From positions 1 to 61,415 of the forward strand of contig CAMHJX010000021.1 of the NCBI GenBank assembly GCA_946185535.1: a DNA stretch of 61,415 nt. Reading direction: 5' to 3'. The notes beneath the pieces are model-generated. The model did no database searches, was not told where the DNA came from, and was given only the letters and a program-made list of their open reading frames with translations. Source of the stretch: an uncultured Bacteroidales bacterium. GTDB taxonomy: Bacteria; Bacteroidota; Bacteroidia; Bacteroidales; F082. Below are positions 1,404 through 61,385 of this stretch, one piece after another. The first letter of the stretch is position 1; each line of letters opens with the position of its first letter. The position numbers were made by a program, and so were the translations under genes.

Positions 1404-3950
1404 CTACTCCACCACCAGCTTACGCGTCACCAAGCTGCCACCCAGCATCTGCACAGTGTAAACCCCAGCGGGCCAACGGCTCACATCGATGGTGCGCTGC
1501 CCTTCGACGGTGAAGGTGGCCACAATCTGTCCCTGCATGTTGAGCACCATCACACTGACGACACCCTTGTCATAGTCGGTGCGAAGGGTGAACTGGCCTT
1601 TCGCTGGATTGGGATAGAGCTCAGCGGTGAAAGCCGGCTCAGCATGGGCTTCGTGGACATTCACCAACAAGTCCTCGTCATTACTATAGGTCACAACCTT
1701 GCCCGAGACACGCAAAACCGGGTTGTCGGGCGCAGCACACTCAGTGCAAGTCACGCCATCGATGCAGTCAGGATGGTTGGGATGGCAGAGGTCAAGGTAG
1801 GTCGGGTCAAACTGATAGAACAACTCGGCTTGTCCGGCAGTAAGATATTCCGAAAGGTCGAAGTCCCAAACCATGCCGATGCTGCCAGGACACCAACCGC
1901 TGCGGGGATAGGTCCAAGTGCCGTTTTGCGGCTGACAGCCCGCCGGATTAGGCGTGCAGTTGCGCCACAAGTGCTGGTCGTATTTGCTCTGTCCATTCAC
2001 GAAGATGTGGTGTGTGGCCTCATAAAACTCGGCGGCGTTGCCCGTGTTGTAGCTGTTGTTGGTGCCGCTGCTCCAGTTGTGGCCAGTCGTCGTGATTTTC
2101 AGTTTGGCAGACTGCGCCTGTTCGCTGAAGGAATAATCCACAACGGGTACGGGCTGCTGGTTGGCGTAGTCGCCAAAGGCGTATGTGCCAAACCAAATCT
2201 CATCGACATCGACATAAAGGTAGTCTGGCGTGCCTTTAGTGAAGCTGAAAATCAGGTTGGGGTTATACCCGCTGCCAGCCCAACTTTCCATGTAGAACTC
2301 AAGCTCGACCAAGCCCTGCAACAAAGAAGTGTAGTCGCTCACATCAAGGTCGTCTTCACACTGCACACCGAAGGGCGTGATGTAGCGGAACAACTCCACC
2401 CATTCGCCACGGTAGTTACGCACCTTGACACCACCCACGCGGTCGTAGCTATCGCAGTTGCCATTCACGCAGTTGTGGTCGTAATGCGCCATAATCTCTT
2501 TGAACGCACCCACATGCGAAGGCAGTACATATTCACCTTTGGCACTGTGTACGGTCGGAGTGCAGACGAGGTCGCCGTTCATCGTCACCACATCCAATTG
2601 GCTGTCAATTTGTTCGGTAACTTCAAAACTATTGATGAAGGTCGTCGTCTTGTCGCCAGATTGCGTCACGCTGACGGTCATGTTGTATGAACCAAAGACT
2701 GAAGGTGTCCAGAAACCATAATAATAGCCGTTTTCAGGGTCATCGGGATAGTCGGTCTGTAAGGCGATGTATTCGCCATTAATGGAAGCATGTACATTGG
2801 TGAACTTAATGACTTCGGGATGCTCAATATAAGCCGAAACGACAATCATCACGGGATGGAGGTCGTCCATATAGACCTTGGTACCATCGTAGGGACGGCG
2901 GATTTTCACCTCAGGCTCGTAAGCGTAAGGGTCAACCACCTCAAAGCTTTTCACCACATCGGGGGCGGGTAGCCAGTTGTCATCGCCAGCTTGCGTGGCC
3001 TTAAACTTGACGACACCCGTCTCACCCGTCAAGGTGAGCACATTGCCGCTGATGGTGGCAGGGCCTTCCATCATCTCGAAGCTGACGGGCAGTCCCGACG
3101 AAGCTGTGGCCACAAGGGTAATCGGGTCATTGAAAATCAACTGGTTGGGAATGTCGGCCATCTCGATGAGTTGGGCATTACCGTCGGGCTGCTGACGCAC
3201 GAGGAGGTTATCGAAGCCGCCCGTGCCACCTTGCGAGTGGAAGAAGATACCATCCCACACTTGGTAGTCGTTCGAGTCGCCACTGCCTGGGGTGAGGTTC
3301 ATGCAGACATTGGTGCAGCCAGCCATCTGTATCCATTCGCCCTCGCAGCCAGGCTTGACGAACACCGTCACCGCGCCTGCGCCGTTAAAGGCCGTGAAGT
3401 CGAACGACATCTTGTAGCGTGTCCAGCCGCCCTCTTCATAGTCGAAGGGAATACTAGTGCCGTCGGGCAGACAAACCTTGGCATGGCCGCTGTCGCCTTG
3501 GCTCTTGATGAAGAGATAGACGCCGCCATCGGGGTCGGTCATGCCAGGCAGGATGTGACCATCGCCGTCGCCATCGAAGCCCACGCCGAAGAACGAGCCC
3601 CACCATGTGCGGTTCATGTCGATTTCAAGGTCCATGATGCCACCGTTCTGGAAGCTGAAGTTAAAGTTGGACGAGGCTTTGCGGGTGGCTGTGCGTCCCA
3701 CACCTGAGCCACCGTAAGGATACCAAATGGCGAGGCTCTCGTCGGGAGCCATGTCGGATCCACAGACATAGCTGACATCGAAGTCCTGCGACGAGGTGGC
3801 AGTCTGATAATGCGTTACCCAGCCATCTTGGCCGTTGAGGTTCTGTGAGCCTTCGGTGAGGCTGTTGAAGTCGTAGAGGTATTCCACTTGGGCCTTTGCC
3901 GTGAAGGCAAAAAGGAGATACGTAATGAGTATTGCTATTCTTCTTTTCAT
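1404..3950 (-). CDS. PNGase F-like peptide N-glycosidase, T9SS-secreted
   Basis: 848 residues. Order: signal peptide (1-20, ending AKAQ), a lectin- or laminin-G-like region (~25-255), an Ig-like segment (~260-340), a PNGase F two-lobed domain (~450-710) and a T9SS sorting domain (~772-848, LYPNPAKG to RKLVVE). The PNGase F call rests on the CDSYDR motif followed by GEWVELFRYITPF, on GTPDYLY, and on NAAEFYEATHH and SGWCPGS. The three catalytic acids of Elizabethkingia PNGase F (D60, E118, E206) align with D503, E555 and E641. The enzyme would deamidate glycosylated asparagine and release intact N-glycans from host or dietary glycoproteins, outside the cell. The ATG at 3950 was preferred over a longer frame (to 4022) because it begins the signal peptide and lies downstream of a promoter. 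Confidence 0.85.
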   Translation of the reverse strand: MKRRIAILITYLLFAFTAKAQVEYLYDFNSLTEGSQNLNGQDGWVTHYQTATSSQDFDVSYVCGSDMAPDESLAIWYPYGGSGVGRTATRKASSNFNFSFQNGGIMDLEIDMNRTWWGSFFGVGFDGDGDGHILPGMTDPDGGVYLFIKSQGDSGHAKVCLPDGTSIPFDYEEGGWTRYKMSFDFTAFNGAGAVTVFVKPGCEGEWIQMAGCTNVCMNLTPGSGDSNDYQVWDGIFFHSQGGTGGFDNLLVRQQPDGNAQLIEMADIPNQLIFNDPITLVATASSGLPVSFEMMEGPATISGNVLTLTGETGVVKFKATQAGDDNWLPAPDVVKSFEVVDPYAYEPEVKIRRPYDGTKVYMDDLHPVMIVVSAYIEHPEVIKFTNVHASINGEYIALQTDYPDDPENGYYYGFWTPSVFGSYNMTVSVTQSGDKTTTFINSFEVTEQIDSQLDVVTMNGDLVCTPTVHSAKGEYVLPSHVGAFKEIMAHYDHNCVNGNCDSYDRVGGVKVRNYRGEWVELFRYITPFGVQCEDDLDVSDYTSLLQGLVELEFYMESWAGSGYNPNLIFSFTKGTPDYLYVDVDEIWFGTYAFGDYANQQPVPVVDYSFSEQAQSAKLKITTTGHNWSSGTNNSYNTGNAAEFYEATHHIFVNGQSKYDQHLWRNCTPNPAGCQPQNGTWTYPRSGWCPGSIGMVWDFDLSEYLTAGQAELFYQFDPTYLDLCHPNHPDCIDGVTCTECAAPDNPVLRVSGKVVTYSNDEDLLVNVHEAHAEPAFTAELYPNPAKGQFTLRTDYDKGVVSVMVLNMQGQIVATFTVEGQRTIDVSRWPAGVYTVQMLGGSLVTRKLVVE

Positions 3951-6250: not shown

Positions 6251-7123
6251 ATGATTCGTTCCATGACAGGTTACGGCATTGCCGAACAAACCTATAACGC
6301 GAAGAAAGTATCAGTAGAAGTCAAGACCCTCAACAGCAAACAGTTGGACCTTCAGGTGAAGCTGCCCAACGAATTGCGCTTTGCAGAACTGGATTTCCGA
6401 AACAAGATTGGGGCCAAACTGCAACGCGGCAAGGTGGACGTGGTCATTACCATCACCGACACCGACCTGAGCCAGACTTACCATATCGACCAAGATATTG
6501 TAAAGGCTTACAAGGAGCAGATTGAAACCATCTCCGTTGCCTTGAATGTAGCTCCTGCGGACGACTTGGCTTCCATCCTCTTCCGCATGCCAGGCATCTT
6601 CAACATCCCTGTGGAGAATTACGACGAAGCTTTTGTCGCTAAAGTGGCCGAAACCCTTGAACAGGCTTTGGACATCGTCGACGGCTTCCGCATCCAGGAA
6701 GGCCAGACCTTGAAGAAAGACTTGTTGCATCGCGTGGAACTGATCCTTGACCTGCTTGGCCAAGTGGAACCCTACGAGAAGAGCCGCCACGAGGTCATCA
6801 AGCAACGCATCACCAAGAACCTCAGTGAGTTGACCACGACTGGACAATACGACGAAAACCGCTTCGAGCAGGAACTGATCTATTATCTTGAAAAGCTCGA
6901 CATCACCGAGGAGAAAGTACGCCTGCGCCAGCATTGCAACTACTTCAACGAGAGCTGCGACGACGACCAAGCAGGCAAGAAACTCGGTTTCATCGCCCAG
7001 GAGATGGGCCGCGAAATCAACACCTTGGGCTCGAAGGCCAACGAGGTGAACATCCAGAAGATTGTCGTCAAAATGAAGGACGAGTTGGAGAAAATAAAAG
7101 AACAGGTGTGTAATATTTTATAA
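6251..7123 (+). CDS. yicC: YicC family endoribonuclease-like protein
   Basis: 290 residues, the usual length. It opens with the family hallmark MIRSMTGYG, has a YicC-type N-terminal domain (~1-155) and a DUF1732 C-terminal domain ending in KANEVNIQKIVVKMKDELEKIKEQV, including the conserved REINTLGSKAN stretch. E. coli YicC has been linked to RNA turnover as an endoribonuclease. The ATG at 6251 was chosen over 6206 because the longer frame overlaps the upstream lipoprotein and lacks family similarity. The neighbouring guanylate kinase gene is a common partner of yicC, so this is probably a yicC-gmk-nadD unit. Confidence 0.9.
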   Translation: MIRSMTGYGIAEQTYNAKKVSVEVKTLNSKQLDLQVKLPNELRFAELDFRNKIGAKLQRGKVDVVITITDTDLSQTYHIDQDIVKAYKEQIETISVALNVAPADDLASILFRMPGIFNIPVENYDEAFVAKVAETLEQALDIVDGFRIQEGQTLKKDLLHRVELILDLLGQVEPYEKSRHEVIKQRITKNLSELTTTGQYDENRFEQELIYYLEKLDITEEKVRLRQHCNYFNESCDDDQAGKKLGFIAQEMGREINTLGSKANEVNIQKIVVKMKDELEKIKEQVCNIL

Positions 7124-7192
7124 GCTATCAGCTATCAGCCGTCAGCGGTCAGCAATTGCTAATGCTGATAGCTGACGGCTGACTGCTGAAAG
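7124..7192. repeat. Heptamer-type palindromic repeat, copy 1
   Basis: Built from repeated units such as GCTATCA, GCCGTCA and GCGGTCA and their reverse complements (GCTGATAGC, TGACGGC), giving a long imperfect hairpin between yicC and gmk. Related tracts occur at 10390-10470 and 14463-14538. Confidence 0.7.
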
Positions 7193-7207
7193 CAAAAAAA
7201 CACGACT

Positions 7208-10389: not shown

Positions 10390-10470
10390 GCTGTTAGCTT
10401 TTAGCTGTTAGCCATTAGCCGCATCAACGTTGCTAATAGCTAACAGCTAATGGCTAATAGCTCAACAGCC
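10390..10470. repeat. Heptamer-type palindromic repeat, copy 2
   Basis: TAGCTGTTAGCCATTAGCC and its near-complement GGCTAATAGC/AACAGCTAATGG form an extended hairpin between the TPR gene and rsmA. The units (AGCTGTT, AGCCATT) differ from copy 1 but keep the same seven-base AGC rhythm. Confidence 0.7.
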
Positions 10471-30517: not shown

Positions 30518-32470
30518 ATGATTTCAATCCAAAACCTGAGCATGCATTTTACTGGTGAGGACCTCTTCACCGATATTTCCTTTTTGATTCGCGAGAAGGA
30601 CCGCATCGGTTTGGTGGGCAAGAACGGCGCAGGAAAGACCACGCTGCTGAAGCTCATTTGTGGATTGGAACAGCCTTCAAAAGGTGATGTCATTATCCCG
30701 CAAGGCGTTACCATTGGCTATCTTCCCCAAGAGAAGAATGTGAACAGCACGAAAACCGTTTTGGATGAAGCGCTTTCCGCCTTCGATGAATACCATCAAT
30801 TAGAACGCGATGTGGAAAAGTTGCAGCAGGAATTAGCCGACCGCACCGACTATGAAAGCCCGCAATACGAGAAGCTCATCGTCAAGCTGAACAACTTGAA
30901 CGACCGCTTGGCCTTACTCGGTGGCAACAGCATCGAGGGCGAAGCGGAAAGGATTTTGGTCGGCTTGGGCTTCGGTCATGAGGATATGCAACGCCCTATG
31001 CGCGAGTTCAGCAACGGTTGGCAGATGCGCGTAGAATTGGCCAAGATCCTATTGAAAAAGCCCAACCTGCTCCTTCTTGACGAGCCCACCAACCACCTCG
31101 ATATTGAGTCCATCCAATGGCTCGAAGGCTTCCTGAAAGCCTATTACGGTGCCATCCTGATGGTGTCGCACGACCGCGCCTTCTTGGACAATATTACTAT
31201 CCGCACGGTGGAAATCAGCAACGGCAAGATTTACGACTACAAGGTGCCATATTCCGATTATGTCGGTCTGCGCGAAGAGCGCATCGACATGCAGCGTTCG
31301 GCCTACGAGAACCAACAGCGCGAAATCAAGAACATCGAGGCCTTCATCGAACGATTCCGTTACAAGGCGACCAAGGCCAAGCAGGTGCAGAGCCGCGTGA
31401 AAATGCTCGAGAAGATGGATGAGATTGTGATCGACGACATCGACAGCACGGCTATCCACTTCAAGTTTCCGCCTGCGCCACATTCCGGTAAGGTCACTTT
31501 GGAACTGAACCATGTCGGTAAGTCATACGGAGACCAAGTCATCCTCAAAGACATCAACCTGCTGATTCCGAGAGGTGAGAAAATAGCCTTTGTGGGACGC
31601 AACGGCGAAGGCAAGTCCACACTATCGAAAATCATCTGCGGTGTACTCGACCATGAAGGCGAGGTGAAACTCGGTCACGAAGTGAAGATCGGATATTATG
31701 CGCAAAACCAGCAGGACATGCTCGACATGAACAAGACCGTATTCGAGACCTTGGATGATGTAGCCGTTGGCGATATGCGACAGAAGGTAAAAGCTTTGCT
31801 CGGTTCCTTCCTCTTCCGTGGTGATGACATCGACAAGAAGGTGAAAGTGCTCTCGGGTGGCGAGAAAGCCCGCCTTTCCTTGGCCAAGATGCTGCTTTTC
31901 CCGACCAACCTATTGGTCCTCGACGAGCCGACCAACCACTTGGACATGCTTTCCAAGGATATCTTAAAAAACGCCTTAATCCAATACGACGGCACCTTAA
32001 TCATCGTCTCCCACGACCGTGACTTCCTGCAAGGCTTGACTAACAAGGTCTACGAGTTCCGCAAGCCCAACATCAAGGAATACATCGGCGACATTTACGA
32101 CTTCTTGGAGCAGAAGAATCTCAGCCACTTGAAGGAGTTGGAGATTGCTGCCAAACAAACCAAAGTCCAAGAAGTCGTACCACAGTCACAGAATAAGATT
32201 AACTACGAGCGCAAGAAGCAGATTGATGCCAAGTTGCGCAAAGTTGACAAGGAAATCCAACGCCTGGAGGAAGCCATCGGGAAATTAGAGACCGAACTAG
32301 CTGAACAAGATGCCATCATGGCCCATCCCGACCAACATCCTGACATCAAAATCGACAACGACTGGTATTGGGCCTATGGACAGAAAAAAGAGCAACTCCA
32401 ATCACTAATGGATGATTGGGGAGAGAAGCAGATAGAACGGGAAGAGATTTTGACAGAATATGAGAAATAA
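30518..32470 (+). CDS. ABC-F family ATPase
   Basis: 650 residues with two ABC domains and no membrane segments. Domain 1: Walker A GKNGAGKTT (~36-44), LLLLDEPTNHLD; domain 2: GRNGEGKST, LSGGEKARLSLAKM, LVLDEPTNHLD; between them the ABC-F linker (~240-310, arginine/lysine-rich). A C-terminal coiled coil (~560-650) resembles that of Uup. ABC-F proteins act on the ribosome to relieve stalling or protect against drugs; which role applies is not clear. Its last ~20 codons are duplicated, diverged, at 34198-34260 beyond the neighbouring ATPase gene. Confidence 0.92.
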   Translation: MISIQNLSMHFTGEDLFTDISFLIREKDRIGLVGKNGAGKTTLLKLICGLEQPSKGDVIIPQGVTIGYLPQEKNVNSTKTVLDEALSAFDEYHQLERDVEKLQQELADRTDYESPQYEKLIVKLNNLNDRLALLGGNSIEGEAERILVGLGFGHEDMQRPMREFSNGWQMRVELAKILLKKPNLLLLDEPTNHLDIESIQWLEGFLKAYYGAILMVSHDRAFLDNITIRTVEISNGKIYDYKVPYSDYVGLREERIDMQRSAYENQQREIKNIEAFIERFRYKATKAKQVQSRVKMLEKMDEIVIDDIDSTAIHFKFPPAPHSGKVTLELNHVGKSYGDQVILKDINLLIPRGEKIAFVGRNGEGKSTLSKIICGVLDHEGEVKLGHEVKIGYYAQNQQDMLDMNKTVFETLDDVAVGDMRQKVKALLGSFLFRGDDIDKKVKVLSGGEKARLSLAKMLLFPTNLLVLDEPTNHLDMLSKDILKNALIQYDGTLIIVSHDRDFLQGLTNKVYEFRKPNIKEYIGDIYDFLEQKNLSHLKELEIAAKQTKVQEVVPQSQNKINYERKKQIDAKLRKVDKEIQRLEEAIGKLETELAEQDAIMAHPDQHPDIKIDNDWYWAYGQKKEQLQSLMDDWGEKQIEREEILTEYEK

Positions 32471-32482
32471 GATGCGATAAAG

Positions 32483-32586
32483 TGCTGTTAAGTGAAAATT
32501 TTTCTGACATAACAGCATTTTATCTGCAAAAAATGTTTAATAGCGTGCTGGTAAGTCGAATTTTTAGGGACTTAACAGCACGCTAT
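32483..32586. repeat. Palindromes A1 and A2, 3' side of ATPase A
   Basis: A1: arms TGCTGTTA (32483-32490) and TAACAGCA (32510-32517). A2: arms ATAGCGTGCTGGTA (32540-32553) and TAACAGCACGCTAT (32573-32586), one mismatch. Both have exactly 19 nt between arms, with a T5 tract. The TAG stop of ATPase A (32583-32585) lies inside the A2 right arm. A1 followed by T4 could also terminate ABC-F transcription. Confidence 0.85.
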
Positions 32587-34007
32587 CGTGATTCTTTGAA
32601 CAAATCATCCATCGTCACTTCCGATTGGATGTTGTTCCAATAAGCATTATGAGCGACACCGTATGTGGTAATCATGGTAAGGTGGATGGCTTTGCGGGTT
32701 TTGGTAACTTCTTGAAACACAGATTTCCGTCTCCGAAGTTTGTTGTCTTCCTCTTTGTCAATCCGATAAACATCATCCGAAAACTTCATTTCACAAAGAT
32801 TGATGACGCCATCGTTACGGTCAAAAAGCAAGTCGATTTGCACACCCTCGTGTTCTTTGATAGTTTCGACATGCCATGATTGGGCGTTGCTGATCACTCC
32901 AGCGATACCTAATGCAGACCTGATTTGAGGTAAATGCCATAAACATACCCGCTCAAAAGCCAGTCCTGCCCAAGCTGTGTGGATTGGAGTAGATAAGTTG
33001 TTGGTCCAGAAATGGTTGTCGTGGTGGTAGTTGTTCTCAATATAGCGGAAGTAGAACAAGGTGAAATGATCCATAAGTTGATAAATCGCCTCGCGTTTTA
33101 TCTTGCCAATGACCTGATACTTTCGAATGAAATTGCATTTCTCTAACTCCTCGGTCGCCTGTATGAAAACCTTATTGTCGTCAAGTCCGGTGCTTTCGAG
33201 CAGCGCTTTTCGGGTCATGCCCGCTTTCTTGGTTGCCAAGGCAGTAACGATGGCAATGTAAGGTGCAGGTCGCTTGAACAAGGAGGCATAAAGAGCATTG
33301 AATTCATCAGCAAGGCGTCCGTCCTCTTCAAAAAACAAACGGTCAATATTCTGTGCCAGACTCTCATTGCGTCGCAAGAGGCTCCAATAATAGGGTATGC
33401 CGCCCAAGATCATATAGGTTTCCACAAGGTCTTTTCTTGTCATGCTGAGTTTGAGTGACTGGGCTAATTGTTCACATTCGTTGATACAGAAAGGCTGGAG
33501 GTAAATCTTGTCAGTCAATCGGTTATGCAATCCGCCATGGTCGCGGATGATTTTCTTGATAATCCATGAGGTGGCACTTCCGCAAACGACGAGGACGATG
33601 TCTTTACGCATATTGGCCCAACCATTCCAAAAATGCTCCAAGGCACTGATGAGCTGTGACTTTGGGGTATCCATCCACGGCAGCTCGTCCAAAAAAACCA
33701 CCTTTTTCTTATCGGGAGATTGTTCTAATACCATCTCAAGTAAGTGGAAGGCCTCAAACCAAGTGCGTGGCATCTTGCAGCGCTTCAATCCAGCCTTGCG
33801 CAGCGATTCGCGAAACTCGGTCAGTTGTTCTTTTTTCGGGGCATTGGCTACACCTGTGTGATAAAATGCGAAATGGTTCTCAAAGGTCTCTTTGATAAGG
33901 TAGGTCTTGCCCACGCGTCGCCTCCCATAAACGGCGCAGAATTGCGATTCGTCTTTCTCCAATAGTTCAAGGAGTTCTCTTCTTTCTTCGTTGCGTCCAA
34001 TTAGCAT
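32583..34007 (-). CDS. AAA ATPase with DUF234 nuclease-like domain (ATPase A)
   Basis: 474 residues. N-terminal ATPase_2-type AAA domain: Walker A GRRRVGKT (28-35), Walker B VVFLDELPW, and the CGSATSWI sensor segment. A winged-helix middle follows (~250-320, MTRKALLESTGLDDNKVF). The C-terminal DUF234-type part has a PD-(D/E)XK-like core: D392, E406, K408 (GVQIDLLFD, LCEMKFS). Such proteins are multi-copy in many Bacteroidota and archaea and their role is unsettled. Clear paralogue of the gene at 59520-60938. ATG at 34007 chosen; the frame opens at a TTG at 34034. Flanked on both sides by its own palindromes. Confidence 0.88.
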   Translation of the reverse strand: MLIGRNEERRELLELLEKDESQFCAVYGRRRVGKTYLIKETFENHFAFYHTGVANAPKKEQLTEFRESLRKAGLKRCKMPRTWFEAFHLLEMVLEQSPDKKKVVFLDELPWMDTPKSQLISALEHFWNGWANMRKDIVLVVCGSATSWIIKKIIRDHGGLHNRLTDKIYLQPFCINECEQLAQSLKLSMTRKDLVETYMILGGIPYYWSLLRRNESLAQNIDRLFFEEDGRLADEFNALYASLFKRPAPYIAIVTALATKKAGMTRKALLESTGLDDNKVFIQATEELEKCNFIRKYQVIGKIKREAIYQLMDHFTLFYFRYIENNYHHDNHFWTNNLSTPIHTAWAGLAFERVCLWHLPQIRSALGIAGVISNAQSWHVETIKEHEGVQIDLLFDRNDGVINLCEMKFSDDVYRIDKEEDNKLRRRKSVFQEVTKTRKAIHLTMITTYGVAHNAYWNNIQSEVTMDDLFKESR

Positions 34008-34039: not shown

Positions 34040-34053
34040 CGTAATTTTTTTCG

Positions 34054-34163
34054 ATTATTTGCTGTTAAGTCGCTATTTTTTACACTTAACAGCAAATAAT
34101 CTGATATTTTTGCTCGATAATATGCTGTTATGTTAATTTTTTGAGGACTTAGCAGCTGATTAT
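34054..34163. repeat. Palindromes A3 and A4, 5' side of ATPase A
   Basis: A3: perfect arms ATTATTTGCTGTTA (34054-34067) and TAACAGCAAATAAT (34087-34100). A4: arms ATAATATGCTGTTA (34117-34130) and TAGCAGCTGATTAT (34150-34163), three mismatches. Both have a 19-nt spacer with a T6 tract. Core TGCTG.TA/TA.CAGC is shared with A1 and A2 while the outer bases differ yet still pair. Confidence 0.85.
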
Positions 34164-34197
34164 ATACAATGAATAGAAGGGGAAAAGGACGCAAGCC

Positions 34198-34260
34198 CAA
34201 ATGGACGACTGGGGAGAGAAGCAAATTGAGCGCGAGGAAGTAATGGCAGAGTACAATTGA
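34198..34260 (+). pseudogene. Duplicated 3' end of the ABC-F gene
   Basis: Encodes QMDDWGEKQIEREEVMAEYN and a stop, matching the ABC-F C-terminus LMDDWGEKQIEREEILTEYEK at 32407-32470. DNA identity is roughly three quarters and most differences are silent, so it is old or came from another strain. It lies directly beyond palindrome A4. The remainder of 34261-34380 shows nothing but AT-rich sequence. Confidence 0.8.
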
Positions 34261-57882: not shown

Positions 57883-57980
57883 GCGACCTTTCAGAACGGC
57901 TTTTGCTTGTCACATTTCGTGCCAAAGTGGAAAATGGCAGGGTTTTGTCAGTTGGGGTGACAAAGTGACACAAAAAGGGC

Positions 57981-57988
57981 TATCTTTG
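57981..57988 (+). promoter_or_regulatory. -7 element for the MATE gene
   Basis: TATCTTTG followed by GCAC. The downstream ATGs at 58001 and 58007 leave a leader of only about 6-12 nt, so the real start could be as late as 58051. Confidence 0.55.
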
Positions 57989-58006
57989 CACTCGAATTCG
58001 ATGACC

Positions 58007-59398
58007 ATGTCAAACATCAACGACGAGCGGAAACTCAACGAGCGGTATAAGATGATGACGGAGCAGCCCGTCAGGCGGCTGATCCTCAAGATGGCTGTGC
58101 CGACCATCATTAGCATGCTCGTAACCACCATTTATAATATGGTGGACTCGTTCTATGTGGGTCATCTGAGCACCGAAGCCGTGGCTGGCGTGGGCGTTTC
58201 GTTTGCCTACATGGCCTTTATTAATGCTTGCGGCTTCTTTTTCGGGCATGGCTCGGGCAATTACATCTCACGGGCCTTGGGTGCAAAACAAGGACAGAAT
58301 GCAGGGCGTATGGCAGCCACGGGTTTCTTCTCCCCTTTGATTCTGGGTGCTATTGCAGGCCTCATCTGCATGATCTTCATCTCGCCCTTGTCGCGGGCCA
58401 TGGGCGCCACCGAGAGCATCCTCCCCTACGCCAACGACTACCTGCGGTTCATCTTGATTGCCACGCCTTTCATGATGTCGTCGCTGACGCTCAACAACCA
58501 ACTCAGGCTACAAGGCAATGCCCGTTTCGGCATGATTGGCATCGCCTCGGGTGCCATCCTCAACATCATCCTCGACCCCATCTTTATCTTTGTGCTTGAC
58601 TTGGGGGTCAGCGGGGCCTCGTTGGCCACGGCAGTGAGCCAGTGCTTCGGCTGGTGCGTGCTGCTTTGGGGCACTTCGCGACCTGGCAATGTGCATATCA
58701 AACCGAAGAACTTCACTCCTACCCTATACTATTACAAGGAAATCACGCGGGGCGGATTGCCATCGCTGGCACGACAGGCTTTGTCGGTGGTGGCCACCAT
58801 CAGCCTCAACCGAATGGCGGTGCATTATGCCTTGCCCGGCAATGAAGCCTCCACCGTTGCGGCCTTCACCATCGTTTCGCGCATCACCATGTTCTGTTTT
58901 GCCGTTGTCATTGGGTTCGGGCAAGGATTCCAGCCCGTGTGCGGCTATAACTACGGCGCCAAACTCTATGCCCGCGTCAAGGAGAGCTATATGTTTTGCA
59001 TCACGCTTTCCACGGCATTTCTGATTGTCCTTGCAACCGTTGTCTATATCTTCGCTCCTGACATCATCTCATGGTTCCGTGGCGAGGATCCAGAGCTCAT
59101 CCGCGTAGGCAGTCAGGCGTTGCGCTGGCAATGTATCGCCTTCCCGCTGATGGGTATGTGCACTGCGACCAACATGCTGTTCCAAAACATCGGATACACT
59201 TGGCAGGCCACCTTGCTCTCGATGTGCCGTCAGGGCTTGTATTTCCTGCCAGCGGTCTTTATCATGTCGTGGCTTTGGGGCATCACAGGTCTCGAAGCCG
59301 CCCAAGCCGTCGCCGATGTTTGCACCTTCTTAACCTCGTTGCCGTTTGCTGTGTGGATTAGTCGGATTCTGACCGCGAAGTCACAGCATAATGCGTGA
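58007..59398 (+). CDS. MATE-family multidrug exporter
   Basis: 463 residues from 58007. Twelve membrane helices; family features MAVPTIISMLVTTIYNMVDSFYVG, GASLATAVSQCFGW and VIGFGQGFQPVCGYNYGAK. Exports cationic drugs or metabolites with Na+ or H+. The start must lie after the promoter at 57981; 58007 is used, 58001 and 58051 are alternatives. A palindrome (B1) with T6 beyond it lies 61 nt after the stop. Confidence 0.9.
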   Translation: MSNINDERKLNERYKMMTEQPVRRLILKMAVPTIISMLVTTIYNMVDSFYVGHLSTEAVAGVGVSFAYMAFINACGFFFGHGSGNYISRALGAKQGQNAGRMAATGFFSPLILGAIAGLICMIFISPLSRAMGATESILPYANDYLRFILIATPFMMSSLTLNNQLRLQGNARFGMIGIASGAILNIILDPIFIFVLDLGVSGASLATAVSQCFGWCVLLWGTSRPGNVHIKPKNFTPTLYYYKEITRGGLPSLARQALSVVATISLNRMAVHYALPGNEASTVAAFTIVSRITMFCFAVVIGFGQGFQPVCGYNYGAKLYARVKESYMFCITLSTAFLIVLATVVYIFAPDIISWFRGEDPELIRVGSQALRWQCIAFPLMGMCTATNMLFQNIGYTWQATLLSMCRQGLYFLPAVFIMSWLWGITGLEAAQAVADVCTFLTSLPFAVWISRILTAKSQHNA

Positions 59399-59459
59399 AG
59401 ATGGAAGGCAAATTCAGCCGAACGAAGTTCTGAAAACGATAAATGACCCTGAAAAACTT

Positions 59460-59512
59460 GCCTATACTCAGCGGAAAGTAGTAAAAATCGGTAGATTCCG
59501 CTGAGTATAGGC
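59460..59512. repeat. Palindrome B1, 3' side of ATPase B
   Basis: Perfect 17-bp arms GCCTATACTCAGCGGAA (59460-59476) and TTCCGCTGAGTATAGGC (59496-59512), spacer exactly 19 nt with an A5 tract. ATPase B's stop is 8 nt away. Followed on the plus strand by T6, so it can also terminate the MATE transcript. Confidence 0.9.
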
Positions 59513-59519
59513 ATTTTTT

Positions 59520-60938
59520 CTATTTTTCAAAAAGAGATTCTGAGGTGATTACTGCTTGAAATTCATCAGAATATGGATTTGGTTTCACACCGCTGGCTGA
59601 AACAAGGATAAGATGGACAGCTTTGTCGGTGCCAGTCTCGGCGATGAGGCGAGAACGGCGGTTCTGGACTTTCTGTTCTTCATCAAATGTCATTTCGTAT
59701 GGTTGCTTGGTGTATTTCATCTCACAGATATCAATAACATTGTCGTCGCGATCGATAAGCAAATCTATCTGCGCGCCTTTCCCTTCAAAGGTGGCAGGCT
59801 GATGCCAGGAGCACACACGGCTAATAGTACCGAAAATACTGAGGGCTTTCTTAATCTGAGTGACATGCAGAAGACAAACACGCTCAAAAGCGAGTCCGCA
59901 CCAGTTATAATAAATTGGCGAACCCATCTGACGCGACCAAAAATACTCATCGCCGCCAGTGTTCTGTTGTATGAAACGATAATAGAAGAGTGTGTAAGAG
60001 TCGATGAGTTGGAAGACAGCACTTTTTATTTTCAGCCCGAAGTTGGTGTACTTTCTGACAAAACCACAAGCTTCGAGGTCTTGCAATATCTCGGAAAGCC
60101 GTCCGTTGTCTTGGAGATGTGCCTCACTGATGATTTCATCACGGGTCATGCCGATACGCTTGCTACCTAAGGTCTGAACAACGGTAATGTAAGGGTCAGG
60201 ATTTTTGAAGAGCGAGGCGTAGAGCGCATCAAATTCATCATGGAGTTCCCCATCGGGATTAAAAAAAAGATTGTCGATATTCTGGGCAAGACTAAAGCTG
60301 CGCTCGAGTTTTGACCAATAATAAGGAATGCCACCCATAATCATGTAACACTCCATAAGTTGTCGGCGATTCATTCCAAGTTTGCGGCGGGTGGCATACC
60401 GCTCGCATTCGTTGAGCGTGAATGGCTGCAGGTGAATCTTTGTATTGACACGGTTATGCAAGCCTCCTTTGTTTTTGAGTATTTTCTTGATGATCCAAGA
60501 GGTGGCACTACCGCAAACGATAAGCACCACGTCCTTACGAGCCGACGCCCATCCGTTCCAGAAGTTCTCGAGTGCGGGAATAAAACCGGAACGCTGAGTA
60601 TCCATCCAAGGAAGCTCATCGATGAATATGATTTTTTTGGATTCCGTTGACTGGCGTATGATCTCCTTTAGAGCCTCGAAAGCATCGAGCCAAGTGTGAG
60701 GCAGGGCAGCTTTTTTGAGCCCGTACTCGCGTAGGGAAAGACGCCAGGCGGCGAGTTGTTTCTTCATAGGAGACTTGGCCAGTCCAGTATGGTAGAAGGT
60801 AAAACTATTGTTGAATGTTTCGCGTATCAAGTAGGTTTTGCCGACACGACGACGACCATAAACTGCTACAAACATTGAGTCTTCTTCGTCAACAGCTTGA
60901 AGCAGGCGTTGTTGTTCTTTTTCTCTTCCAATAAGCAT
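59520..60938 (-). CDS. AAA ATPase with DUF234 nuclease-like domain (ATPase B)
   Basis: 472 residues, co-linear with ATPase A. MLIGREKEQQRLLQAVDEEDSMFVAVY, Walker A GRRRVGKT (28-35), Walker B KIIFIDELPWMDT, VCGSATSWIIKKIL, NECERYATRRKL, IMGGIPYYWSKL, and C-terminal GAQIDLLIDRDDNVIDICEMKYT with the PD-(D/E)XK-like D, E, K. The ATG at 60938 is used; the frame opens at a TTG at 60962. Promoter at 60960. Flanked by palindromes B1 and B2. Function unknown. Confidence 0.88.
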   Translation of the reverse strand: MLIGREKEQQRLLQAVDEEDSMFVAVYGRRRVGKTYLIRETFNNSFTFYHTGLAKSPMKKQLAAWRLSLREYGLKKAALPHTWLDAFEALKEIIRQSTESKKIIFIDELPWMDTQRSGFIPALENFWNGWASARKDVVLIVCGSATSWIIKKILKNKGGLHNRVNTKIHLQPFTLNECERYATRRKLGMNRRQLMECYMIMGGIPYYWSKLERSFSLAQNIDNLFFNPDGELHDEFDALYASLFKNPDPYITVVQTLGSKRIGMTRDEIISEAHLQDNGRLSEILQDLEACGFVRKYTNFGLKIKSAVFQLIDSYTLFYYRFIQQNTGGDEYFWSRQMGSPIYYNWCGLAFERVCLLHVTQIKKALSIFGTISRVCSWHQPATFEGKGAQIDLLIDRDDNVIDICEMKYTKQPYEMTFDEEQKVQNRRSRLIAETGTDKAVHLILVSASGVKPNPYSDEFQAVITSESLFEK

Positions 60939-60959
60939 AATGATAGTGTTTTTCGTCTG

Positions 60960-60967
60960 CAAAGGTA
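60960..60967 (-). promoter_or_regulatory. -7 element of ATPase B
   Basis: Minus-strand TACCTTTG followed by GCAG, 22 nt upstream of the ATG; the expected -33 position lies in palindrome B2. Confidence 0.6.
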
Positions 60968-60979
60968 TGAAAAAATATA

Positions 60980-61030
60980 TCTATACTCAGCGGAAAGTGG
61001 AAAAATTTGATAGATTCCGCTGAGTATAGA
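60980..61030. repeat. Palindrome B2, 5' side of ATPase B
   Basis: Perfect 16-bp arms TCTATACTCAGCGGAA (60980-60995) and TTCCGCTGAGTATAGA (61015-61030), spacer exactly 19 nt. Same as B1 except that the outermost C-G pair has become T-A on both sides. Confidence 0.9.
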
Positions 61031-61039
61031 CACTTTTTT

Positions 61040-61108
61040 CTGTTTTTCGAAAAGAGCTTCAGAAGTGATTACAGCTTGAAATTCAACGGAAAAGGAAAGG
61101 CCTTCATT
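61040..61108 (-). pseudogene. 3' remnant of another DUF234 ATPase
   Basis: Encodes FSVEFQAVITSEALFEK against YSDEFQAVITSESLFEK at the end of ATPase B. The stop codon position reads CAG instead of TAG, and an in-frame TAA at 61109-61111 closes it upstream. It directly abuts palindrome B2 as the ATPase B 3' end abuts B1. Confidence 0.8.
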
Positions 61109-61130
61109 TTATTCTGATCCTAAAAGTCCC

Positions 61131-61175
61131 AAAAGTGTCCATAACTCGAAATTTTGTTGAGATATGGACACTTTT
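61131..61175. repeat. Orphan palindrome D
   Basis: Perfect 13-bp arms AAAAGTGTCCATA (61131-61143) and TATGGACACTTTT (61163-61175), spacer exactly 19 nt. Same design as A and B but a different sequence, and next to the ATPase remnant. Confidence 0.85.
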
Positions 61176-61293
61176 GAGTGTTATTGCCGGAACAAAAGCG
61201 GCCATGACAACCATAAACAAAGCGGCTGCCACGGTGCTTCTACAGGCTCAGCAACCTTGTGACAGCCCAACACCACCACGCCTGGGCTGCAAG

Positions 61294-61313
61294 GCTGTCG
61301 TACCACGGCAGCC
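61294..61313. repeat. 20-bp exact repeat, copy 2
   Basis: GCTGTCGTACCACGGCAGCC as at 54220-54239. The surrounding 61176-61415 has no credible gene; TTCTACAGGCTCAGCAACC at 61234-61252 resembles the CCCTTCGACAGGCTCAGG element. Confidence 0.6.
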
Positions 61314-61360
61314 GCATTAATCATTCGCGCATTGCAAATGCTGATATTCAAACCTTCCGA

Positions 61361-61385
61361 ATTGCAAATCACGAGCGGTCGAAAG
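61361..61385. repeat. Dispersed repeat at the right window end
   Basis: AATCACGAGCGGTCGAAAG (61367-61385) is the exact reverse complement of 27-45. Confidence 0.6.

Follow-up and report, generated by a model that had tools for sequence, protein, structure and literature searches.

Cognate palindromes accompany apparently mobile, single-gene ATPase–nuclease units of the PDC-S27 family in an uncultured Bacteroidales bacterium and its relatives

Near one end of a 61,415-nucleotide (nt) stretch of DNA from an uncultured Bacteroidales bacterium (contig CAMHJX010000021.1 of assembly GCA_946185535.1; hereafter the window), a single gene, here called ATPase B, is bracketed by two perfect palindromes with common arms. 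What ties these palindromes to this gene, and what might they do for it? The one directly 3′ of the ATPase B stop codon reads TGCCTATACTCAGCGGAA-n19-TTCCGCTGAGTATAGGCA (59459-59513, 18 of 18 pairs perfect), and the one 5′ of the gene reads TCTATACTCAGCGGAA-n19-TTCCGCTGAGTATAGA (60980-61030, 16 of 16). An initial annotation of the window had pointed out this pair, its 19-nt spacers and the differing outermost (16th) base pair, C-G in the downstream and T-A in the upstream palindrome, all of which hold. By our own arithmetic, a perfect 16-bp arm with a spacer of up to ~40 nt is expected ~0.0005 times per 61 kb, so that two such palindromes with common arms are not a chance occurrence. As the window is the entire contig C21 of the source genome, the B cassette lies close to a contig end. 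Comparison with its relatives identifies it as one of a large family of horizontally mobile one-gene units, laid out as palindrome, promoter and ATPase/nuclease gene, with a further palindrome behind the gene in fewer than half of them.

By profile, the product of the gene (likely ATG at 60936-60938, minus strand) is a member of PDC-S27 with a predicted role in defence. All four copies scanned match PADLOC model PDLC04984 (PDC-S27) with E-values of 5e-188 to 3e-203, and the full-length match of ATPase B (E = 1.8e-197) spans profile positions 4-473 of 474. PDC-S27 is described as a candidate single-gene phage-defence family in which an ATPase is fused to a PD-(D/E)XK domain (PADLOC; PMC12988326), and its genes are listed among the abundant candidate defence genes of rumen microbes (PMC13356809) and archaea (PMC12988326). 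Most PDC-type candidates of the latter survey are presented there as awaiting validation, and the portions of the two papers available to us name neither trigger nor target of PDC-S27. In Pfam, ATPase B scores 58.8 bits against ATPase_2 (PF01637; gathering cut-off 33.2) and 16.2 bits against DUF234 (PF03008; cut-off 22.5, E = 0.014); the membership of DUF234 assumed in the initial annotation thus gives way to a clear assignment to ATPase_2. Among relatives, 55 of 102 match DUF234 at E up to 1. No transposase or recombinase domain in Pfam is matched by B above cut-off; PD-(D/E)XK domains are themselves capable of serving in transposition. NCBIfam returned no match for three copies, and PHROGs one weak match for two. 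The family is scarce outside chromosomes: 6 of 72,556 plasmid records match at E 1e-30 and 4 of 50,697 phages at E 1e-20, and viral contigs yielded five loci from 46 pattern matches. The occasional relatives of the ATPase on phages and plasmids are distant (26-44% identical), as in MN180249.1 (Wolbachia phage WO) and six plasmid records.

The pairing of gene and palindrome extends well beyond this locus. Arm comparisons cover 103 cassettes from 102 of 121 loci, assembled from named loci and a genus search (L009-L012 and 15 loci that failed an open reading frame (ORF) motif filter were excluded), and the wider survey holds 207 entries, equal to 197 distinct cassettes with ten entered twice, its genus-wide ATPase positions coming from among the matches listed; counts over 166 palindromes or 207 entries refer to entries. 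An upstream palindrome is present in 156 of the 197 distinct relatives. Upstream hairpin scores of at least 10 occur in 80/102 cassettes versus 2/102 shuffles and 12/263 other ORFs of the same loci, and downstream in 38/100 versus 1/100 shuffles and 23/283 other ORFs. Across the 103 cassettes, 88 have the upstream and 46 the downstream palindrome, so that the latter, originally taken as part of a two-ended architecture, proves optional. Where both are present they tend to match: arms have at least 9 nt in common in 31 of 45 two-sided cassettes versus 60 of 1980 crossed cassette pairs. Since spacer orientation is the same in 29 of 32 two-sided cassettes (one inverted, two ambiguous, by a script label that rests in some cases on small score differences), the two sites are mostly direct repeats. 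Type B, the type searched genome-wide, was sought with two mismatches allowed in 60 same-genus genomes, and was found at 15 places in nine of them and at none in 51. Fourteen of the 15 places adjoin a B-type ATPase, the exception being one site in G018, counter to the concern that such palindromes might mostly adjoin unrelated genes; the source genome has two, both beside B. Among the B-type site variants CTCAGCGGAA, CTCGGCGGAA and CTCTGCGGAA, changes are mostly paired on both arms.

Arms and protein diverge in step. In a set of 81 cassettes, arms are common in 88-91% of the 73 protein pairs at least 70% identical and in at most 7% of those below 60%, and mean arm similarity climbs from 0.23-0.29 below 60% protein identity to 0.58 at 60-70%, 0.85 at 70-80% and 0.95 above 80%. 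This tracking, with the agreement of arms inside cassettes, bears out the proposal that each ATPase has its own arms and largely supports the associated idea of a family of specificity variants. A search for covarying protein regions gave a more mixed answer: the two best 25-residue windows, with a Spearman value of 0.23, belong to the winged helix (residues 265-301), yet one in the ATPase comes close (0.22), and the domain-level difference between winged helix (0.218) and ATPase (0.183; nuclease 0.072) is reached in 65 of 300 permutations and is not significant. This makes the winged helix a suggestive candidate for the specificity domain and no more.

The geometry of the upstream site indicates what kind of element it may be. 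Arm-to-arm spacers in 166 upstream palindromes occupy the full searched range of 6 to 26 nt, most often 13 (33 palindromes), 19 (20) or 15 (18) nt. The 19-nt spacing first noted as constant consequently fails from arm to arm (ATPase A, a paralogue in the same window, has 13 and 11 nt), and a fixed arm spacer was dropped for a core-to-core spacing, in which form alone the constancy survives. A GCNRAA-like half-site core, selected after inspection of the arms, occurs in 76 of 176 distinct palindromes compared with 14 in shuffled arms, and its two copies stand 19 or 20 nt apart in 56 of the 76. Between the upstream palindrome of B and its ATG lies TACCTTTG, which we take to be a Bacteroidetes-type −7 promoter box. 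A TAnnTTTG box is found in this interval in 138 of 166 cases, at a median of 38 nt from the palindrome centre (interquartile 36.5-57); 182 of 207 entries have the box no more than 45 nt away from the ATG, against 4 of 207 shuffles. This geometry and the promoter box together argue for a bipartite protein site beside a promoter, not an RNA hairpin of the gene's own transcript.

Comparison of loci indicates that the units are mobile. Three insertion loci are cassette-free in related species (a between-species comparison, one genome per species). At the 3′ end of a MatE-family transporter gene, G000 and G016 carry B, G021 and G031 a different ATPase, D (56% to L008), and G048 and G018 two in tandem; pieces of the MatE tail lie beside the inserts (~14 nt with one mismatch in G021, ~31 nt in G016). 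The locus of ATPase A is occupied in G000, G016 and G021 and empty in G044 and G029, with 47-62 nt of the neighbouring gene's tail repeated. At the 3′ end of secA (downstream of L004), the flanking genes are adjacent without a cassette in four genomes. For the L003 locus, a clean empty site was not obtained among the relatives compared, which diverge beyond the junction. Strong flank repeats accompany 21 of 191 distinct cassettes versus 3 of 1910 mismatched controls (one scan gave 18 matches, several of them leftover palindrome arms), so that a minority of insertions lie between long, variable direct target repeats, several of which are gene 3′ tails. Duplications of fixed length, as expected of insertion sequences, were not seen: repeats measure ~14 to 118 bp where present and are mostly absent.

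The upstream boundary of the unit often lies right at the outer edge of its upstream palindrome. Of 19 pairs of close copies located at different loci, 12 lose upstream homology no more than 10 nt from an edge of an upstream palindrome (11 of 17 without L320/L342, whose downstream flank is common, and L236/L319, which show a flank match under a looser test). Most precisely, L236 (G048) and L354 (G050), 97.4% identical in DNA and without a flank match, lose homology exactly at the palindrome edge (−103); L319 and L354 have their right flank in common. At L331, distances of 1 and 9 nt separate the outer palindrome edges from a 36-bp repeat (33/36, counted by eye). As for the downstream end, some clades have it at the downstream palindrome and others 55-73 nt past that; where such a palindrome is lacking, it is close to the stop codon. 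Among eleven B-clade members, flanks are common only to G000/G016 and G018/G048, and on one side to G057/G056 and (53 nt) G050/G056.

Closely related copies are hardly ever present twice in one genome. The within-genome comparison took in 113 copies from nine genomes, of which G000, G048 and G022 are complete for full-length matches and six are covered in part. G048 and G022 hold 23 and 21 intact copies, with highest within-genome identities of 60.3 and 60.4%. Over all nine genomes, one of 865 within-genome pairs reaches 65% identity and none reaches the 90% expected of insertion-sequence copies. Between genomes, 46 of 5248 pairs without a flank match are at least 65% identical, 14 of these at least 90% (L320, with too short a flank, excluded and a looser flank test applied; before that, 50 of 5359, with 17 at 90%).

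Table 1. Positions in the window of the B cassette, its neighbours and related features (a dot marks features listed without a strand).
Feature	Position	Strand	Remarks
MatE-family transporter gene	57965..59398	+	insertion hotspot at its 3′ end; cassette-free junction in 8 of 15 genomes inspected
Downstream palindrome of B	59459..59513	.	18-bp arms, 19-nt spacer; arms and spacer orientation as in the upstream one
ATPase B	59520..60938	-	472 aa; AAA+ (ATPase_2), winged helix, PD-(D/E)XK-like nuclease; PDC-S27
Promoter box TACCTTTG	60960..60967	-	between upstream palindrome and ATG
Upstream palindrome of B	60980..61030	.	16-bp arms, 19-nt spacer; upstream edge of unit
Second copy of 59450-59571	60968..61091	-	84.7% over 124 nt; palindrome and 3′ end of a B-like ATPase gene
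Palindrome D	61130..61176	.	14-bp arms, 19-nt spacer; D-type relic; D cassette at this locus in G021, G031
Flank of D cassettes	61131..61369	.	~240 bp common (86-91%) to G021, G031, G048, G018, G050
3′ tail of gene neighbouring A, first copy	32399..32445	.	first copy of target duplication
Downstream palindrome of A	32540..32586	.	one mismatch; overlaps stop codon; imperfect second at 32476-32524
ATPase A	32583..34007	-	paralogue, 53% identical to B
Upstream palindrome of A	34053..34101	.	18-bp arms, 13-nt spacer, perfect
Same gene tail, second copy	34192..34238	.	far side of cassette A

The source genome contains 12 matches to the ATPase: eight are full-length copies, two are pieces of a single broken copy, and the other two are distant relatives. 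Palindromes with matching arms stand on both sides of A, B, the C9 and C4 copies and the broken C8 copy; C39 and C1 have one on the upstream side only, that of C17 is imperfect, and C46 has none above threshold. The arms of A differ from those of B. What the initial annotation called D is probably palindrome D of Table 1, which, with its ~240 bp of D flank, marks a D-type relic in the window; the second copy at 60968..61091 either is the leftover of an adjacent B-like copy or arose by target duplication. Left of A, the gene at 30518-32470 matched eight PADLOC models (best mad3, 3.6e-48), possibly generic ATPase cross-matches, and PADLOC gave no match for five of six hotspot neighbour genes.

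Further observations concern hotspots and other repeats. Across the genus, the 3′ ends of MatE (window 59398), secA and a conserved gene at L331/L366 recur as hotspots that hold varied ATPase types or other genes. In contig C13 of G048 (28.7-33.4 kb), the tail of one conserved gene is present in five additional short copies close to the intact 3′ end, which suggests serial insertions. A short element, GACAGCCCTACACC...GGCTGTAGGGCTGTC, recurs beside hotspot inserts of several genomes (L182 3127-3165 in G016, L185 4576-4614, L187 4931-4969; similar at window 61261-61299), and may account for the flank repeats of L339 and L352. At L003 (~2945-3300; source genome, contig C9), the downstream palindrome lies directly 5′ of a promoter box and an apparently interrupted frame, presumably RhuM-like, and might serve both adjoining genes. 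Dispersed intergenic palindromic repeats, TTAGCTGTTAGCCATTAGC, are unlinked to ATPases (window 10390-10461 and 7117-7200; L003 4232-4297, L277, L289).

How, then, are gene and palindrome best understood? The balance tips modestly toward a mobile module resembling a restriction-modification system, whose protein would bind its own palindrome as both operator and unit boundary; in biological terms the unit most likely belongs with restriction-modification-like modules of a selfish or defensive kind (PDC-S27). A dimer of the protein would sit on the palindrome, its winged helices contacting two half-sites whose cores lie a fixed distance apart. As the upstream palindrome directly precedes the promoter, binding there would regulate the gene and render same-specificity copies incompatible, in the manner of the C-protein operators of restriction-modification systems, and the nuclease domain would attack foreign DNA and perhaps, in addition, cut target sites at which the unit itself inserts. 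What the protein would do here (bind DNA, regulate its own gene, exclude copies of its own specificity, act as a nuclease and insert the unit) is inferred. A bolder and rather doubtful extension is a new mobile element without known transposase or recombinase, in which the ATPase–winged-helix–PD-(D/E)XK protein takes its own palindrome as unit end, favours the 3′ ends of genes for insertion and creates long duplications there, and keeps out a second copy of like specificity, with many compatible specificities arising by co-change of winged helix and palindrome. The type-specific palindromes that adjoin most copies offer a direct way into the family, in that they predict the DNA bound by each protein; over a hundred natural protein–site pairs are available for reading a recognition code, and the cognate palindrome suggests how PDC-S27 genes spread and why each type tends to occur once per genome.

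Several observations weigh against this module with its operator and boundary. No upstream palindrome was found in 41 of the 197 distinct cassettes, and the downstream one is absent in 57 of 103, several of them with clear target repeats, so that insertion does not need two palindromes. As many as 170 of 191 distinct cassettes have no recognisable flank repeat; the remaining 21 are not all independent (L002/L103 is the same insertion in two species), and those of L339 and L352 may belong to another short element. The boundary lies more than 10 nt from the palindrome edge in 7 of 19 pairs. Over all pairs the rank correlation between arm and protein is weak (Spearman 0.17, reached by none of 300 permutations). 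As to one copy per type, only ~7.6 within-genome pairs at or above 65% would be expected, a small number, and rough because the genomes are related and six are sampled in part, their copies coming from among the matches listed with a bias towards B-like ones; L005/L007 in the source genome, 82% identical and with an imperfect L007 palindrome, is an exception.

Two other readings deserve serious weight. The palindromes may be autoregulatory operators only, with the module spreading passively by illegitimate recombination and its boundary simply marking where the functional unit starts. This reading, a real contender that we nonetheless put below even chance, accords with the consistent placement of the upstream palindrome relative to the promoter and with its excess over the downstream one, and long variable target duplications have been described for restriction-modification insertion (PMC3031569); yet it leaves unexplained both a second palindrome past the stop codon and the sharp ends common to copies at different loci. 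Conversely, the palindromes may be true ends, cut by the unit's own ATPase–nuclease acting as transposase, with defence secondary or absent. The unit has no other gene, homology between L236 and L354 stops exactly at the palindrome edge, the L331 repeat lies close to both palindromes, and widely spaced transposase cuts would produce long duplications. Set against these are the highly variable repeat length, the many copies without any repeat, the optional downstream palindrome and the lack of multiplication within genomes, and such a self-mobilising element seems rather unlikely.

Simpler origins fare far worse. Ordinary bidirectional transcription terminators would fit the A and T runs that flank the stems and the position of the downstream palindrome after a stop codon, and this palindrome could double as a terminator; but the upstream one precedes the promoter box, spacers are long, arms are specific to the adjoining ATPase type, and other ORFs at these loci have such palindromes much less often, which makes terminators exceedingly improbable as the general account. 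Dispersed repeats of the repetitive extragenic palindrome (REP) or miniature inverted-repeat transposable element (MITE) kind, moved by another transposase, could explain ATPase-free palindromes such as those at window 61130-61176, beside secA in G058 (1.5 kb seen) and at the B-like site in G018. They too are very improbable, as B-type sites, the type for which whole genomes were searched, are not dispersed. Chance, terminators and dispersed repeats were judged unlikely on the shuffle and other-ORF counts, the cognate arms and the location of B-type sites beside B-type ATPases.

Among known systems, the B cassette resembles REP/RAYT elements in that palindromes stand on both sides of the gene and may be recognised by the protein it encodes. 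It differs in that no Y1 transposase match appears among the Pfam matches shown and in that its palindrome type, the one searched for, is confined in its own genome to the two places flanking B. Alignments to the archaeal ATPase_2 proteins SSO1545 and PABY2304 stop at residue 321-324, with the nuclease domain outside. Within the terms searched, the literature yielded no publication recognised as describing this architecture. PDC-S27 itself (PADLOC, PMC12988326) is the same protein family, and its account, in the portions available, mentions neither palindromes specific to the gene nor duplication of the target nor a limit to one copy per type. Restriction-modification modules are patchy and diverse, are reported to insert with long variable target duplications (PMC3031569), and are limited in co-residence by C-protein operator specificity, which defines incompatibility groups (PMC3874152), all traits to which the cassettes bear a likeness. 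The B unit differs in being a single gene with its own palindrome and no separate regulator, and as this one-gene unit has no cognate DNA methyltransferase (distant methyltransferases were not searched for), it is not a restriction-modification system by membership. Its closest working analogy is the restriction-modification module.
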